Below, one piece after another: positions 5,979 through 62,173 of a stretch of DNA of 64,000 nucleotides. Positions within the stretch are counted from its first letter, which is position 1. Each line of letters opens with the position of its first letter. The notes below the pieces were generated by a model that saw nothing but the letters and a program-made list of their open reading frames with translations, was not told the DNA's origin and ran no database searches. The position numbers and the translations under genes were made by a program. Source of the DNA: Blastocystis hominis (Eukaryota; Sar; Bigyra; Opalinata; Blastocystidae); the NCBI RefSeq assembly GCF_000151665.1, contig NW_013171817.1:62001-126000 (forward strand), written 5' to 3'.

Positions 5979-5996
5979 TGTTTGTTCCAAGAAACA
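5979..5996. terminator. Back-to-back polyadenylation motifs shared by golgin (+) and COG6 (-)
   Basis: Plus strand reads TGTTTGTT, CC, AAGAAACA. The right half is TGTTTCTT on the minus strand. Each half is a 3'-end octamer for one of the two convergent genes. Assignment rests on the known Blastocystis motif and on the same arrangement recurring in four other places in this window. Confidence 0.75.
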
Positions 5997-24194: not shown

Positions 24195-24212
24195 TGTTTG
24201 TTCCATCAAACA
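24195..24212. terminator. Back-to-back polyadenylation motifs shared by the transporter (+) and TANGO6-like gene (-)
   Basis: Plus strand TGTTTGTT, CC, ATCAAACA; the right half is TGTTTGAT on the minus strand. Same 8+2+8 layout as at 5979 and 32686. Confidence 0.75.
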
Positions 24213-31895: not shown

Positions 31896-32128
31896 CTGAT
31901 CGTTTTATTAGTAGCAATTCAGCGCAATAGCAAGTTATTTATAATTGGCTAATTCATTTGAATCAAGTATTATTATTATTATTATTATTAATAACACATT
32001 GCTTGCTTCTTTGTTTGTTGCTGTCCAAATTCGTGTGATCCCATCTTTCCTGGAAATTTCTAGGAATTCAAAATCTCATTTAAATCTCACCACAGAATTG
32101 TCACTTTTTGGTAGAACTCCTCAAAACA

Positions 32129-32653
32129 ATGGTCAGCTTGAAGCTTCAGAAGAGACTTGCTGCCGCCGTCCTTAAGTGCGGTAAGCGTAAGGTGTGGATG
32201 GATCCCAGCGAGGTGAGCAACATTGCTGTTGCCAACTCTCGCCAGAGCGTTCGCTCCATGATCAAGAACGGAATGATCGTGAAGAAGCACAACCTGATGC
32301 ACTCTCGTGCTCGTGTGAACATTCGTCACGAGGCCAAGGCCCGCGGCAACCACACTGGTTACGGTAAGCGTCACGGAACCATGAACGCCCGTATTCCCGA
32401 GAAGCTGCTCTGGATGCGTCGTATTCGTGTGCTCCGTAGACTGCTGCGCAAGTACCGTGATGCCGGCAAGATCGACAAGCACATGTACGCTCACTTCTAC
32501 GCTCTGGCCAAGGGTAACCGTTACAAGACCAAGCGTGTGCTGATTGAGCAGATCCACCGTAAGAAGGGTGAGGATAAGAAGGAGAAGCAGCTTGCTGAGC
32601 AGGCTACTGCCCTTCTTAACCAGAAGAGAGCCGCTATGGAGGCTTCTGCCTAA
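32129..32653 (+). CDS. RPL19: 60S ribosomal protein L19 (eL19)
   Basis: Single uninterrupted plus-strand frame: ATG 32129, TAA 32651-32653, 174 residues. Starts MVSLKLQKRLAAAVLKCGKR, with VWMDPSEVSNIAVANSR, GTMNARIPEKLLWMRRIRVL and the basic helix RYKTKRVLIEQIHRKKGE, all diagnostic for eL19. GC-rich and codon-biased as expected of a highly expressed gene. An earlier ATG cannot be used without an upstream intron. The 3' signal is the perfect palindrome at 32686-32703. Confidence 0.98.
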   Translation: MVSLKLQKRLAAAVLKCGKRKVWMDPSEVSNIAVANSRQSVRSMIKNGMIVKKHNLMHSRARVNIRHEAKARGNHTGYGKRHGTMNARIPEKLLWMRRIRVLRRLLRKYRDAGKIDKHMYAHFYALAKGNRYKTKRVLIEQIHRKKGEDKKEKQLAEQATALLNQKRAAMEASA

Positions 32654-32685
32654 GTCGTCTAGTGTATGGATGATCTACCACTTGA

Positions 32686-32703
32686 TGTTTGTTCGAACAA
32701 ACA
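32686..32703. terminator. Perfect 18-bp palindrome: back-to-back 3' motifs of RPL19 (+) and PP2C (-)
   Basis: TGTTTGTTCGAACAAACA reads the same on both strands. Each half is a full TGTTTGTT octamer pointing at one of the two convergent genes. RPL19 stops 33 bp to the left and the PP2C gene 54 bp to the right. Confidence 0.85.
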
Positions 32704-32718
32704 GGGCTAGGATACATA

Positions 32719-32756: not shown

Positions 32757-34237
32757 TTAGGGATGCAACTTGACAACTATCACGGACATGTCGTCAAGGA
32801 ACAACCTCCGATATCCAGTCCGGAGTCCCTTCAGCTGGTCTATGATCAGCTCATTTCTCTCTACCCGTTACGCCTCTCCATCTCCCCCACCTGCCGCATG
32901 CTTCAAACATGCCGCAATGACGGTGTTGGCTGCGGCCTCCGCGGAGTTCCCCCGCCTCAGCACCTCGGCCACGATGTCCACGACGGCCTGGTTATCGAGC
33001 TCGTCCCAGACCCCATCGCTGGCGAGCACAATGAACTGGTCGTGCTGCGCGATCTCAAAGAACGTCACTTCGGGCGTCGCCGTGATGTACGGCGGATGGA
33101 AGTCGCGCGCGAAGCGGTCCAGCTGCGGAATGGCCTCGATGAACTCTTTCCTCTGGTGAACCAAAAGCGCCAGGTCTACTTTGAGCACGAAATCGCCGAT
33201 GCATCGCGTGGGCTGCAGGATGCCTTTCACGTACCGGGGCTCGTCGTTGATAAACGTCACCAGATTGCGCTCCTCTACGCGTGGCTGCCTTCCTTCAGGA
33301 TTACCTGGATGCGCCTTCTTCAGCTTTTGGAACTCGGCGGGCTCGCGAATGTTGTGATCGTGCGTCAAGGCGACGGCTTCCACCTTGTTGCCGCGCGGAG
33401 AGAGGCGGCCCAGCACTGCGCGGCAGTCTCCGGCTAGCGGTGAGGAAGGAGGGAGAGGGGAACCGTTGGCGACAAGGCAAAAATCGTGGTAAATGATCGT
33501 GGAAACGAGACAAGCGCCGGTCGTCAGGATGGAGGAGTCGGATTCCCAGAGAGACATCATCACTGTGGATGAGAAGGGAAAGAAGGGAGGAGTACGGTCG
33601 TAGACGACGTCGTCGAGCGCTTGGTAGAGCTGAATGACTCGTTGGGTCATGTAGGATTCGAGGGAGTATTTATCGATGTAATCTGCATGGAGAGGAGGAG
33701 AGGTGGGGGGTACCGATGTTAGAGAAGAATTTCTTGACCAGCTTTCCGAATTCCATTTTCACGATGTCGGAGACGAAAGTGCCTCCATGGCCATCGGCTA
33801 CGCCGGTTAATAAGATATTTGGGACGGGATTCTCAACTATAATGCGATCTTCGCAGGGATTGTTGGACTATCGCGATAATCGATCGAAAATACTCATACA
33901 GGGTAGTGATCATAACCCACTCCACGTTTTAAATTGTCAAAATTCTTTTGACCACCCGTGAGACCGTACACAGCGAAAAGGGCGGAAGCAGCGAGGGCTC
34001 CGTAGGACACTGCGTGCTTATAGTTGACTGGCTCCTTTGGCAGTAAAAGATTGGTACTACTAGCTTGTGAAGTGAAAATGAGAAGTACGCTGTGCCAAAA
34101 TACTTTGCATTGTGTGGGTAATTCAAAGCAGCAACAGCAGGCCCCCTCGTTCCAATTCTAATAGACCCTGTCCGATACAACGAGCTGACAGTTCCCAGCG
34201 CCCTCCTTGATTTTACGAAAAAGGAAGAAGCGTTCAT
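32757..34237 (-). CDS. Organelle-targeted PP2C phosphatase (pyruvate dehydrogenase phosphatase-like)
   Basis: Minus-strand gene, ATG 34237, TAA 32759-32757, with at least three short introns. The N-terminus (SFFVKSRRALGTVSSLYRTG) is basic, Ser/Arg-rich and free of acidic residues, like a mitochondrial presequence. It is followed by one hydrophobic segment (YGALAASALFAVYGLTGG). The PP2C core then shows PCEDR, VADGHGGTFVSD (metal-binding Asp-Gly-His-Gly-Gly), GDCRAVLG, THDHNIREPAE, TRCIGDFVLK, IVLASDGVWDEL and, after a 51-bp intron, DDMSVIVVKL. The LGYDHYP-like and EDR context resembles pyruvate dehydrogenase phosphatase. Blastocystis organelles are known to contain pyruvate dehydrogenase, so that substrate is plausible but is inference. 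The membrane anchor suggests attachment to the inner membrane. Confidence 0.82.
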
Positions 34238-38983: not shown

Positions 38984-38991
38984 TGTTTGTT
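38984..38991 (+). terminator. 3'-end octamer of beta-adaptin
   Basis: TGTTTGTT overlapping the end of the open frame; cleavage is expected near 38979. Confidence 0.75.
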
Positions 38992-39130
38992 GAGAGAAAG
39001 AGAATGGTCGATCAGCAATCATCAGCGACCTGCGCAATAGAACGAAGCCCTTCCCCTTTCAATGAGCGGTTATTGCCCAATACACACGCAAGGAGAGCGA
39101 GACAATCAATCCCTCCTTTCGTTTGATCGC

Positions 39131-39138
39131 AACAAACA
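39131..39138 (-). terminator. 3'-end octamer of prolidase
   Basis: AACAAACA on plus (TGTTTGTT on minus), 17 bp after the TAA of the prolidase gene. Confidence 0.75.
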
Positions 39139-47874: not shown

Positions 47875-47891
47875 TGTTTGTAAATCAAACA
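47875..47891. terminator. Back-to-back polyadenylation motifs shared by RPN8 (+) and LST8 (-)
   Basis: Plus strand TGTTTGTA, A, ATCAAACA; the right half is TGTTTGAT on the minus strand. Both genes appear to get their stop codon by cleavage just before these octamers. Confidence 0.75.
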
Positions 47892-55113: not shown

Positions 55114-55137
55114 TGTTTGTTTGTTTGTTTGTTTGTT
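55114..55137 (+). terminator. Array of overlapping 3'-end octamers after importin-11
   Basis: (TGTT/TTGT)-type repeat holding five overlapping TGTTTGTT copies at 4-bp steps, 24 bp after the stop. Confidence 0.7.
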
Positions 55138-57052: not shown

Positions 57053-59758
57053 ATGCAATCTAGCTACGTAAGTCATGGAAAGATACGATTCACTTGCAGG
57101 ATCAACAAAAGCGGTTTTATGAGCTAGACGCTGTTTGACTTGGCTTTGGATCTAACAAATAGCAAAATTCAAAGATAAAGGAGAAGATAAAACGTCTTGA
57201 AGAGAAAAACCTAGCGTTGCAGGTATGTGCCTTTTGTAAAGTGATTGTCGCTCACTCTGTCTAGAAACAGCTTTCTTCGAAGAAAGAAGAGGTTAAACAA
57301 TTGAGTACCAGGATCATTTCTGCGGGACAACTCCTGAATGATACGAAAAAAGAGAACGATGTGAATAATATAAATAGGAACGGCTGATTTTCTAGACACT
57401 GAGTGAACAAATCGCATCTCTAAACAAGGAACTCAGTGACCAAAAGGATAAAGCCAAAAAGGAGACTGCCAGTCTCAAGGCCCTTCTTGCGGAGCGGGAT
57501 GCAAAAATCAAGAAGCTCAATGAGAAGGTGGATTCCCTCTATATGACGTCTCTCGAGGAAGCGAGGAAGAAAGACCAGCTGCAAGACCGTCTCGACGATA
57601 TGGAGAAGCAGATCAAAACTGCCAGTCCTTCCGTGTATTCGAGCACGATCATCTCTTCGTCGGCCGTCTATTCCCTACTGAGCGACGCCCAGCAGAAAAT
57701 AGAGAGTTTGCAGTCCCAGCTGAGCGAGGTCACCAAGCAGCGCGACACCGTAGCTGTGCGATAGAGGAGGCCTGAGCGCTAGTTAAGCAAAGAGAACGAG
57801 AACTTGAAGCAGGACGTTCAGGTTCTTCGAAGGCAGCACGAGAACTGCGCTGCCCGCGAGTCCTTGCTGCACCAGAACAATCGTCAGCTCCAAAGCATGG
57901 TGGCGAGCCACGAGGCGGAGAAGGCGGACTTGCTTGCGCGGATTTCGTCGGTCGGAAAGGAGTCGGACGCCACGACGTACTGGAAGATTCGTTTGGAGAT
58001 CGTGGGGTCGCTGAACGAGCGATTGCTGGGGCTTTTGAAGTTCTTTTCCGGCTTTTCTTCGCTTCCTCCTTTGGGAACGGAGACCTATCTTTCGATGCTG
58101 GAGCGAGAGCGAAACGAGTTCCTCCAGATGGCGAGCAAGGAGTGCTCCAAGCGTCGAATCGTCGAGAGCCAGCTGCTCGGCGTGCAGGAACAGCTGCGCC
58201 AGCTCCAGATGAACTACGACCGTCTGATCAATCCGCTGGAGCAGGTGGAGTGCGCGTGCGCGATGCAGGACGAAACGGATTTGGCCATTCTGCGCGATGC
58301 GCTGAACGTAGCGACGCGGGAAGGGCGTGAAGAATAGGAGAAACTGGGACATCTGCAGGCGCTGGAAGGCCAGCTGGACGTGATGAAGGAGGCGCAGCAG
58401 ACGGATAAGCAGCGGATGGACGCGCTGCAGAAGCGGAACATCGAGCTGGAAGAGCGACTGAACGTTCTGCAGAAGGAAAACGAATCGAACCAGCAGTACA
58501 TTCAGTCATTGGAGGAGGACTTGGAGGACAAGGAGTCGAAGATTCAGCGAGAAATCACAGCGAGCAAGGTGATGGAGGAGTCGTGGCATCAAGTAGAATT
58601 GGCCGGGGACTGCGAGCCTAGATGAAGGAATCCGTGGATTCGTTGCGCGCCACCGATAGGCTGAGTAAGGATTCGTTGAAGGCGAGCAAAAGTGAACTGA
58701 GTCGCGTGAAGGACGAATCGGAAAGCAAGATCAAGCAGTTAGATGAGCGAGTCAAGCAGTTGGAAGAGAAGAGTGGCAAGTTGAAACTGGACTATGAAGC
58801 CGCGAGTTCGGATTTGGAGACTGTGAGCAACTACGCCGTGATGCTTGTGTACGACTTCTGCAAAACGTGCAAGGACTGGGAGATCAGCGTGGCCAACTGC
58901 GACTCCATCGAGAAGATGATCTCGCATCTGGGGACGCTCGCCAGCAATCCCGGGTTCGTGAACGAGGTGATGAAGATCTTTGCGGGGGCCACGACGCTGG
59001 TGACTTCCGACCTCTGCACGTTCTTCCAGACGAACCAGGAACACGTGGGGCAGCTGAAGAAGGAGCTGGAGGCGACGACGAAGCTGTGCGACAGCAAGCA
59101 GAAGCAGCTGGATCTGATTCCGGATCACGTGCTGCTGGACCAGATGGAGGGCGGGACGATGAAGACCACGATTTCGTGCGATACGCAGATGATTCCCGTG
59201 GGGGAGAGCGCGATGGGGAACCTGCTTCGGCAGAACAAGTATCTCCAATCGACCGTCTCCGTGTATCAGAACGAAATCGAGGAGCTGTCGAGCCGATTGC
59301 AGGCGGCCAACCAGCTGCCCGTGGCGTTGGGCGTCGACCAGAACAGTGTTTCGCAGCAGCTGGAGTACGAGCGGAGCCAGTGCGTTCTGTGGCGAATCCG
59401 CGCGGAGCAGCTGGAATTGACGCTGAGTATGTCGGTGGACAATCAGAGCTGCCTGACCGATTCGGATCTTGCGAACATTGAAGTGCAGGTGAATAATCTC
59501 ATGACGGACGTGTTCAATACAACGTACGATATGGGACTGCCGGTCTCGCTCGAGTCGATGAAGAGCGTGTATCACAACTGTGTGAAGCAGAATGAAAACC
59601 GAGAGCCGCCCGAGATTGAGACGAATTTGTATTGTACCAAAACCATGATCGACAGCATCATCAAATCTCTCTTGGATGAAAAGTACGTCATGGAAATGGC
59701 TGCTTCGGAAATGAAAGACCAAATCCGGAAGCTGAGATATCAAATGGCAAATGTTTGA
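57053..59758 (+). CDS. Long coiled-coil protein, unknown
   Basis: Plus-strand gene, ATG 57053 (MQSSYDQQKRFYELDAQNSK), about eight introns of 30-42 bp, TGA 59756-59758, about 815 residues. Nearly all heptad coiled coil (KIKEKIKRLEEKNLALQKQL; LKALLAERDAKIKKLNEKVD; LNVLQKENESNQQYIQSLEE). It is broken by two less-coiled segments: one with YWKIRLEIVGSLNERLLGLL, and one Cys/Met-rich with MLVYDFCKTCKDWEISVANC. The C-terminus returns to helix. The overall form recalls dynactin p150, golgins or centrosomal proteins, but no diagnostic domain (CAP-Gly, GRIP) is present. Its last bases, AATGTTTGATAG, include an octamer-like TGTTTGAT. A GTA microsatellite and a proper octamer (59841) follow. Confidence 0.72.
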
Positions 59759-59768
59759 TAGAGTGTTA

Positions 59769-59770
<2 letters not shown>

Positions 59771-59822
<52 letters not shown>
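59771..59822. repeat. (GTA)n microsatellite
   Basis: Seventeen perfect GTA units in the 3' flank of the coiled-coil gene. On the other strand they read as ACT, giving a spurious poly-Thr extension of the RMI1-like frame. Confidence 0.95.
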
Positions 59823-59840
59823 AACTGATACTAGTAGCCA

Positions 59841-59859
59841 TGTTTGTTCCAAAAAAACA
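59841..59859. terminator. Back-to-back polyadenylation motifs shared by the coiled-coil gene (+) and RMI1-like gene (-)
   Basis: Plus strand TGTTTGTT, CCA, AAAAAACA; the right half is TGTTTTTT on the minus strand, a weaker octamer. Same arrangement as at 5979, 24195, 32686 and 47875. Confidence 0.65.
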
Positions 59860-61475: not shown

Positions 61476-62173
61476 ATGTCGGAATCTGCTCAGCTTCCTT
61501 CCGTCCAGAGGATTCGAAGGGATGGTAAATGAGATTCGATGCATTTGAGCTTGTAGGAACCTTCAGTTGTTTTGCGGATGCTTCCTTTAATCCGAACCAG
61601 TTTACAAGTGGCCTTATGCGATCCAGAGACGGAGAGACACAGGGGATGGATATCGATATGTGTTTAAAGATGCTTTCGATTTACTTGGAGACTATTGATA
61701 ATGATTTGCGTGACGTTGTCTTACAGAACCAAGATAAATTGTTTAGCCAGATCAGTGACATCAAAGGGTTAAAAACAGAGTACGAACATATTTACAGCCA
61801 AGTGGATGCGATTACTACTTCCTTCAACTCAATAAAGAGCGAAGTGAATGCTTCGTGCAAGTCGATTCGAGAGAATGCGGTTCGTTTGGCTAATTTCAAT
61901 GCTGTTGTTCTGCTATTGCGCCAAGTTATAGCTTTCCGCTCTGGCATAAAGAAGATTCGCGGCTTTTTGTCAGAAAGCAATCCATCACAGAGAGCTTGGC
62001 TCCGTGCTCAGAAAACGTATCAAGAGATTGAGAAGACGTTCAACGAAGGCCATTTATCAGGTAGATGAATCGAAATTATTTGAATCGTAGATGTGAAAGC
62101 CCTAGCGGAGGATATTCGCTATTTCAATGAGATCCGAGCCAAGATCATCGAGCACGTATCGGCCAAGAAATAA
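61476..62173 (+). CDS. COG5-like protein, N-terminal domain only
   Basis: Plus-strand gene, ATG 61476, introns of 32 bp (near 61522) and 30 bp (near 62060), TAA 62171-62173, about 210 residues. It begins with a short polar lead, then FADASFNPNQFTSGLMRSRD and a long helical segment: ETIDNDLRDVVLQNQDKLFS, LKTEYEHIYSQVDAITTSFN, IRENAVRLANFNAVVLLLRQ and AWLRAQKTYQEIEKTFNEGH. This follows the COG5 N-terminus (FLsddFD...Y......L...I..L...L...V...H..LL.Q). Animal and yeast COG5 is much longer. Here the frame stops at an ordinary TAA, and I see no continuing exon in the 110 bp before the octamer at 62280. It may be a minimal COG5, or another complex subunit of the same fold. Confidence 0.66.

Follow-up and report, generated by a model that had tools for sequence, protein, structure and literature searches.

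The RPL19-PP2C junction and related elements of the window

The window analysed here comprises 64,000 nucleotides of the Blastocystis hominis genome (RefSeq assembly GCF_000151665.1, contig NW_013171817.1, forward-strand positions 62,001 to 126,000; C3:62001-126000 in our contig numbering). It contains the exact 18-bp palindrome TGTTTGTTCGAACAAACA at 32686-32703, located between the convergent genes for ribosomal protein L19 (RPL19) and a protein phosphatase 2C (PP2C). This palindrome had been described in an earlier note made from the sequence alone and was found exactly as given there, with Pfam matches for both genes. The same layout of octamer, short spacer and inverted octamer, claimed for four further places, is present at all of them: 5979-5996 and 24195-24212 (2-bp spacers), 47875-47891 (1 bp) and 59841-59859 (3 bp). 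The accompanying statement that each half is the octamer TGTTTGTT holds for tolerated variants but not for exactness; all 10 halves carry 0 or 1 mismatch, inside the published tolerance of two, and four of the five elements are inexact, only that at 32686 being exact in both halves (Table 1).

Overall, the window holds 31 octamers compared to 2.5 in shuffles. Eight convergent junctions were listed by the coding model, one of which (3589/3607) is devoid of an octamer and looks spurious; five of the seven credible ones hold a pair, in agreement with the five named in the note. The pair at 59734/59773 was overlooked by the script because the model runs minus-strand coding across it.

Most of the proposed gene names are supported by Pfam, i.e., RPL19, PP2C, COG6, Aa_trans transporter, RTP1-type protein (presumably the homologue of TANGO6) and RMI1, and the gene left of 47875 carries the MitMem_reg domain expected of RPN8. 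Two names received no such support: the golgin-like stretch matched no Pfam family, and the gene right of 47891 is identified by Pfam as that of a WD40 protein, without LST8 being singled out.

Table 1. Octamer halves and neighbouring features at convergent junctions (positions counted from the first base of the window)
Feature	Position	Strand	Remark
RPL19 signal, exact octamer TGTTTGTT	32686..32693	+	predicted last mRNA base 32681, 28 nt after TAA
PP2C presumed signal, exact inverted octamer	32696..32703	-	predicted last mRNA base 32708; 3'-end frame unreadable
Exact octamer, 3' end of golgin-called gene	5979..5986	+	encoded stop by coding model, 87 nt 3'UTR
Inverted octamer TGTTTCTT (1 mismatch), COG6 end	5989..5996	-	stop predicted to be made by polyadenylation at 4-nt site
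Exact octamer, Aa_trans transporter end	24195..24202	+	encoded TAA, 8 nt 3'UTR
Inverted octamer TGTTTGAT (1 mismatch), RTP1/TANGO6-type gene end	24205..24212	-	predicted polyadenylation-made stop
Octamer TGTTTGTA (1 mismatch), RPN8-type gene end	47875..47882	+	predicted polyadenylation-made stop
Inverted octamer TGTTTGAT (1 mismatch), WD40 gene end (LST8 in the earlier note)	47884..47891	-	predicted polyadenylation-made stop
Exact octamer, coiled-coil gene end	59841..59848	+	encoded stop, 78 nt 3'UTR
Inverted octamer TGTTTTTT (1 mismatch), RMI1 end	59852..59859	-	predicted polyadenylation-made stop
Ribosomal protein L19e reading frame	32084..32653	+	Pfam PF25476, PF01280
Protein phosphatase 2C domain reading frame	32868..33758	-	Pfam PF00481
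Contrast: convergent junction, two separate exact inward octamers 139 bp apart	38984..39138	.	octamer scan

Frequency and spacing of octamer pairs in the genome

The scanned genome (18.7 Mb, 40 contigs) contains 7304 exact single octamers, divided between the strands as 3601 and 3703; both values fit those published for ST7 (18.8 Mb, 6732 sites). At this density, random placement yields 0.71 inward pairs (octamer followed by inverted octamer) per spacing value. Exact inward pairs were found 8, 17 and 19 times at spacings of 0, 1 and 2 bp, i.e., 44 pairs versus about 2.1 expected; three duplicated loci (L031/L044, L026/L047, L023/L062) reduce these to 41 distinct ones. At 0-6 bp, 58 exact inward pairs were counted. 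The range of 7-30 bp yielded 24 pairs in 24 slots versus 17 expected, although nine of the observed pairs represent (TGTT)n arrays adjoining a tight pair. Exact outward pairs at 0-30 bp amounted to 10 versus 22 expected. Controls with the reversed pattern gave 0 (inward 0-2 bp), 0 (0-6 bp), 3 (7-30 bp) and 19 (outward 0-30 bp) pairs. The inward class at 7-30 bp represents the best local null because its orientation is identical; relative to it, 44 pairs in 3 slots versus 24 in 24 slots correspond to a roughly 15-fold excess per slot (binomial p about 1e-25). The paired layout is thereby confirmed as real and well above chance, and the comparison with single-motif frequency that the earlier note had fixed in advance is answered in its favour.

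With only the hexamer core of each half demanded (TGTTTG..CAAACA, tails relaxed), 160 matches were obtained at 1-3 bp, 221 at 4-6 bp and 69 at 7-9 bp versus 10, 6 and 6 in the controls, a few sites being counted in more than one distance class; for cores 1-6 bp apart, this amounts to 381 versus 16 control matches. Among the first 50 of the 160 matches at 1-3 bp, the gap measures 3 bp in 42, 2 bp in six and 1 bp in two cases, a core gap of 3 bp meaning that the octamer tails have one base in common. The first 50 of the 221 matches at 4-6 bp comprise 21 with a gap of 4, seven with 5 and 22 with 6 bp.

A sample of 244 kb, made up of the window and 180 kb of contig C1, contains four core pairs with gaps of 1-6 bp. 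The coding model places three of them at convergent junctions, and for the remaining one, at 32686, Pfam indicates the convergent setting. The same sample holds 22 convergent boundaries by the coding model, at least one of which is spurious, scaling to about 1700 per genome. By this rough extrapolation, tight pairs would very roughly occupy a minority of the convergent junctions, a fifth to a quarter if nearly all of the pairs are convergent.

Orientation of the flanking genes

Flanking genes were called with a home-made, strand-symmetric coding model, which misses genes and assigned the wrong strand to at least one flank. According to this model, 36 of the 44 exact pairs lie between convergent genes (+ left, - right), three in +/+, one in -/-, three in +/none and one in none/- setting; one of the +/+ calls is the window's own pair, the right neighbour of which, PP2C, is located on the minus strand by Pfam. 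Disregarding the duplicates L044, L047 and L062, 34 of 41 pairs are convergent. Where both flanks were called, 36/40 exact pairs were convergent, and at most four of these 40 tandem, compared to 20/38 convergent among exact octamers with sense coding upstream, a set cleared of (TGTT)n arrays and including two of the window's paired plus-strand octamers (Fisher p = 0.0003). The preference for convergent over tandem junctions assumed in the earlier note thus applies to exact pairs.

With up to two mismatches tolerated, the spacing excess persists in the 244-kb sample (16 pairs in 3 slots at 0-2 bp versus 24 in 26 slots at 15-40 bp). A convergent preference was not apparent in this relaxed set: the pairs at 0-2 bp (five convergent, four tandem, seven uncalled) are no better than those at 15-40 bp (11 convergent, six tandem, seven uncalled).

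Six of the 10 exact outward pairs are convergent, too. Two outward pairs without spacer (AACAAACATGTTTGTT), L068 (C24:1247317-1247332) and L070 (C36:683094-683109), both locate at convergent junctions, and by the published 4-nt cleavage rule each mRNA would end inside the partner octamer. At times the octamer lies within a (TGTT)n array (window 55114-55137; C1:751400-751445). L023 and L062 are duplicates of each other, but the long TGTT array is present in L062 alone.

Stop codons at paired and single octamers

In PMC4159000, Blastocystis poly(A) sites were mapped to a position 4 nt upstream of the octamer, in which up to two substitutions are allowed at published 3' ends. Changing the octamer together with two upstream thymines decreased reporter output 324-fold (PMC6395660). 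The single octamer signal and the completion of stop codons by the tail are likewise described in PMC4159000, PMC5608401 and PMC4360255.

For 42 exact pairs (84 sides), the coding frame was read to the octamer and A's were added at 0-10 nt upstream of it. Two duplicate loci were dropped from this set and the third, L062, is still included; its removal takes away one encoded-stop side and one frameless side. Of the 84 sides, 18 have no readable frame, 29 possess an encoded stop before the site, and 37 remain. An addition at exactly 4 nt creates a stop on 32 of these 37 sides, leaving five with neither kind of stop, compared to 2/38 at 5 nt. The other distances yielded 2/34, 6/34, 1/34 and 22/37 (0, 1, 2 and 3 nt) as well as 4/41, 14/43, 3/43, 3/43 and 7/43 (6, 7, 8, 9 and 10 nt). 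Of the lesser peaks at 3 and 7 nt, the former is expected where the T is followed by G or A. At eight of the 42 pairs, both genes would depend on the tail for their stop. Among sides that have a stop, whether encoded or tail-made, polyadenylation is predicted to make it on 32 of 61 at pairs versus 6/48 at single octamers, the latter share being near the published 15 %; at single octamers, six of 11 sides without encoded stop gain one at 4 nt.

In the window, the stop of the minus-strand gene appears to be made at 4 nt at all four readable junctions (COG6, TANGO6-type, WD40 and RMI1), each at an inexact half, and the plus-strand RPN8-type gene, also at an inexact half, has a predicted polyadenylation-made stop as well. 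Judged by reading frame, the pairs seem to follow the 4-nt cleavage rule, and both halves are probably functional on their own strands. Since the RMI1 stop would be made by polyadenylation, the poly-Thr tail of the plain ORF should be untranslated. This tail corresponds to a TAG-type trinucleotide tract at 59758-59850, just left of the RMI1 element, which by the 4-nt rule falls outside the RMI1 mRNA.

Distance classes, downstream composition and 3'UTRs

Within the 244 kb, 11 convergent junctions combine modelled coding on either flank with an inward pair in which neither half exceeds one mismatch (one best pair each); those at 32686 and 59841 are absent because the model mis-strands a flank. 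Their spacings are 2, 2, 139, 1, 199, 28, 2, 158, 137, 4 and 513 bp, only one of the 11 (28 bp, at a TGTT array) falling between 5 and 136 bp. The spacing looks bimodal, tight versus far, and with two states a benefit of the tight one is an easier explanation than steady shrinkage. Of the five junctions in the far class, four have spacings of 137-199 bp (window 38984-39138; C1:90081, 152261 and 175786), which is near nucleosome size, numbers being very small.

The sequence following single octamers was inspected with (TGTT)n arrays dropped, as was also done for the word ranks below. At 71 unpaired exact octamers at 3' ends, positions +10 to +15 contain 48 % A and 16 % G versus 30 % and 30 % at +20 to +25 (A, p=1.6e-6), and the octamer ranks first for the shift in A among 27 same-composition words. 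Tandem unpaired octamers alone (n=16) show 45 % versus 29 % A (p=0.015; G, p=0.011), while depletion of G was not significant at the 34 unpaired convergent ones (p=0.13). The A-tract is just as strong at 43 octamers that lack upstream sense coding (51 % versus 28 % A). Genome-wide, 530 of the 7304 octamers have a run of six A/C at +10 to +15 and 208 have one at +20 to +25, part of the 530 being the pairs themselves. Of the approximately 100 matches listed at +20 to +25, 27 belong to a dispersed repeat that contains TGTTTGTTTATCAATGAGTCACAAAA with small variations (e.g., C1:939285-939310 and C2:191200-191225). The link between A-tract and octamer is an association.

An abutting partner octamer places its complement, AACAAACA, on +10 to +15, where it is A-rich and free of G. 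Among 28 words of identical composition, it ranks 5th at 18 exact tandem octamers and 2nd at 64 tandem octamers with at most one mismatch, and 4th and 2nd, respectively, at convergent ones. As the ranks are alike, the word-rank test can neither separate the two settings nor show or exclude a hidden partner at tandem octamers.

The median 3'UTR with encoded stop measures 27 nt beside pairs versus 52.5 nt at single octamers (n=26 each), after dropping three of 29 pair sides whose stop lies far upstream, probably because of frame errors, and, among single octamers, sides of at least 153 nt and (TGTT)n arrays. Beside pairs, 16 of the 26 sides retain 24-100 nt. Compaction still matters, as pairs favour the absence of a 3'UTR and have shorter ones where the stop is encoded.

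Interpretation

We consider it probable that the element consists of two complete, strand-specific poly(A) signals, standing back to back or having their last base in common, between convergent genes. As evidence from the sequence, tight pairs are in excess, most exact ones lie at convergent junctions, and the stop logic is seen at both halves. In each pre-mRNA only the own-strand UGUUUGUU would be read, with cleavage four nt upstream of it by a 3'-end machinery that would use both halves. As cleavage would occur outside each half, the predicted mRNA ends are 24-27 nt apart (23 nt with a common tail base). The proposal of the earlier note that one short element ends two genes gains support from the convergent setting and from the stop codons at 4 nt; its expectation of hardly overlapping transcripts goes in the right direction, the predicted mRNAs having in fact no overlap at all. 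Against the reading as two signals stands the predicted folding of the paired RNA, in which the octamer has a mean unpaired probability of 0.22 (n=44) versus 0.37 (n=107); a hairpin would hide the octamer, which is odd for a signal read as single strand.

The close spacing could be accounted for if AACAAACA doubled as the A-rich, G-poor tract seen after single octamers, so that each half would help the other, with genome compaction contributing as well, most of all where no 3'UTR is left. The resulting picture of a fused, mutually dependent double signal, in which each half acts for one gene as the signal and for its neighbour as the A-rich auxiliary element, is tentatively put forward as a possibility to which we would give well under even odds. 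If true, two genes would be locked to one element of 15-19 bp, sometimes with neither encoding a stop codon, a single mutation in it would affect two proteins together, changing their ends and even their stop codons, and the junction would constitute a distinct evolutionary state of one-step origin rather than the product of gradual shortening.

A compaction floor alone, with deletions shortening junctions until two essential octamers abut and no functional coupling needed, agrees with the sharp lower bound of the core gaps, with the enrichment of genes lacking a 3'UTR at pairs and with the shorter encoded-stop UTRs there. Steady shrinkage should, however, leave intermediates, yet these are confined to one of 11 junctions, and exact pairs at 7-30 bp stay near the level set by density. 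Moreover, the junction is often above the floor, given the 24-100 nt retained by the majority of encoded-stop sides, and the outward arrangement, though shorter still, is rare. Taken by itself, compaction is therefore a somewhat unlikely explanation.

Recognition of the palindrome as one unit, either as double-stranded DNA blocking both polymerases or as an RNA hairpin, appears quite improbable. With core gaps of 3-6 bp, the centres of the half-sites would be separated by 9-12 bp, roughly a turn of the helix; the paired RNA is able to form a hairpin, and AACAAACA-like sequence is somewhat favoured at tandem octamers with one mismatch. Variation of the spacing from 3 to 6 bp, however, alters the geometry of any dimer site or loop, variant partner halves break the symmetry at many pairs, and the symmetry ends at the octamers (mean flank identity 0.27 versus 0.28 in the control, 42 pairs); exact pairs at tandem junctions are, in addition, scarce.

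Mere coincidence, with copies of an abundant motif happening to meet where intergenic gaps are short, is conceivable with about 7300 octamers and one expected per strand in each convergent gap. It is ruled out by the spacing profile and has a practically negligible probability, the local chance estimated from same-orientation spacings of 7-30 bp being about 15 times lower per slot.

Three further candidates were rejected. A hairpin terminator at the ends of single genes is at odds with exact pairs being less frequent at tandem than at convergent junctions, origin by copying one half (fold-back) with the lack of palindromy beyond the octamers, and membership in a repeat family with the differing flanks of the exact pairs, except for the three duplicated locus pairs.

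If the reading as two facing signals holds, the pairs provide a way of packing convergent genes almost coding to coding without mRNA overlap, only 24-26 nt separating the last coding bases where both stops are tail-made. They would also supply a straightforward criterion by which gene models could be corrected wherever plain ORFs overrun the true end, perhaps at hundreds of junctions. Because the paired RNA could fold on itself, they form a natural system for asking whether the downstream element is read as RNA or as DNA.

Comparison with known systems

The single signal was known before, as the earlier note had acknowledged. With the Blastocystis TGTTTGTT signal described by Klimes et al. 2014 (PMC4159000) and Gentekaki et al. 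2017 (PMC5608401), the pairs share the octamer, the tolerated variation, the cleavage 4 nt upstream and the tail-completed stops. In contrast, the accessible parts of both papers deal with single signals, a paired, inverted or palindromic form being unmentioned there. The nearest remark in that text is that octamers could separate most of 95 overlapping gene models of ST4, one pair of which was shown with overlapping 3' ends. Neither "convergent" nor "palindrom" was found by word search in PMC4159000, PMC5608401 and PMC6395660, nor "palindrom" in PMC4360255, and a literature search, outside of which most subscription literature lies, did not retrieve a report of the paired Blastocystis form.

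Short inverted repeats in yeast (PMC6420913) likewise correlate with the poly(A) signal; as presented in the accessible part of that study, this is a structural correlation with nucleosome exclusion, not a paired signal of two genes. In Arabidopsis (PMC3032780), sense and antisense transcripts also end in one region, and its authors expected the signals there to be palindromic and suggested selection against double-stranded RNA. The available text differs from the present case in leaving the mechanism open, without a defined element and with long overlapping 3' regions.

The bidirectional cleavage/polyadenylation sites of budding yeast with their symmetric Hrp1 element (PMC3875857) resemble the pairs in that one symmetric sequence serves convergent genes. 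In Blastocystis, too, one element would serve both convergent genes, to judge from 36 of 44 convergent exact pairs and the stop logic on both sides. According to the accessible part of the yeast study, however, the element itself is symmetric and convergent 3' ends frequently overlap, a combination not seen in Blastocystis. The pairing of the known Blastocystis signal appears to be new, while the single signal and bidirectional poly(A) regions were already known; compared to yeast, the pairs consist of two asymmetric downstream elements facing each other, with predicted mRNA ends that do not overlap.
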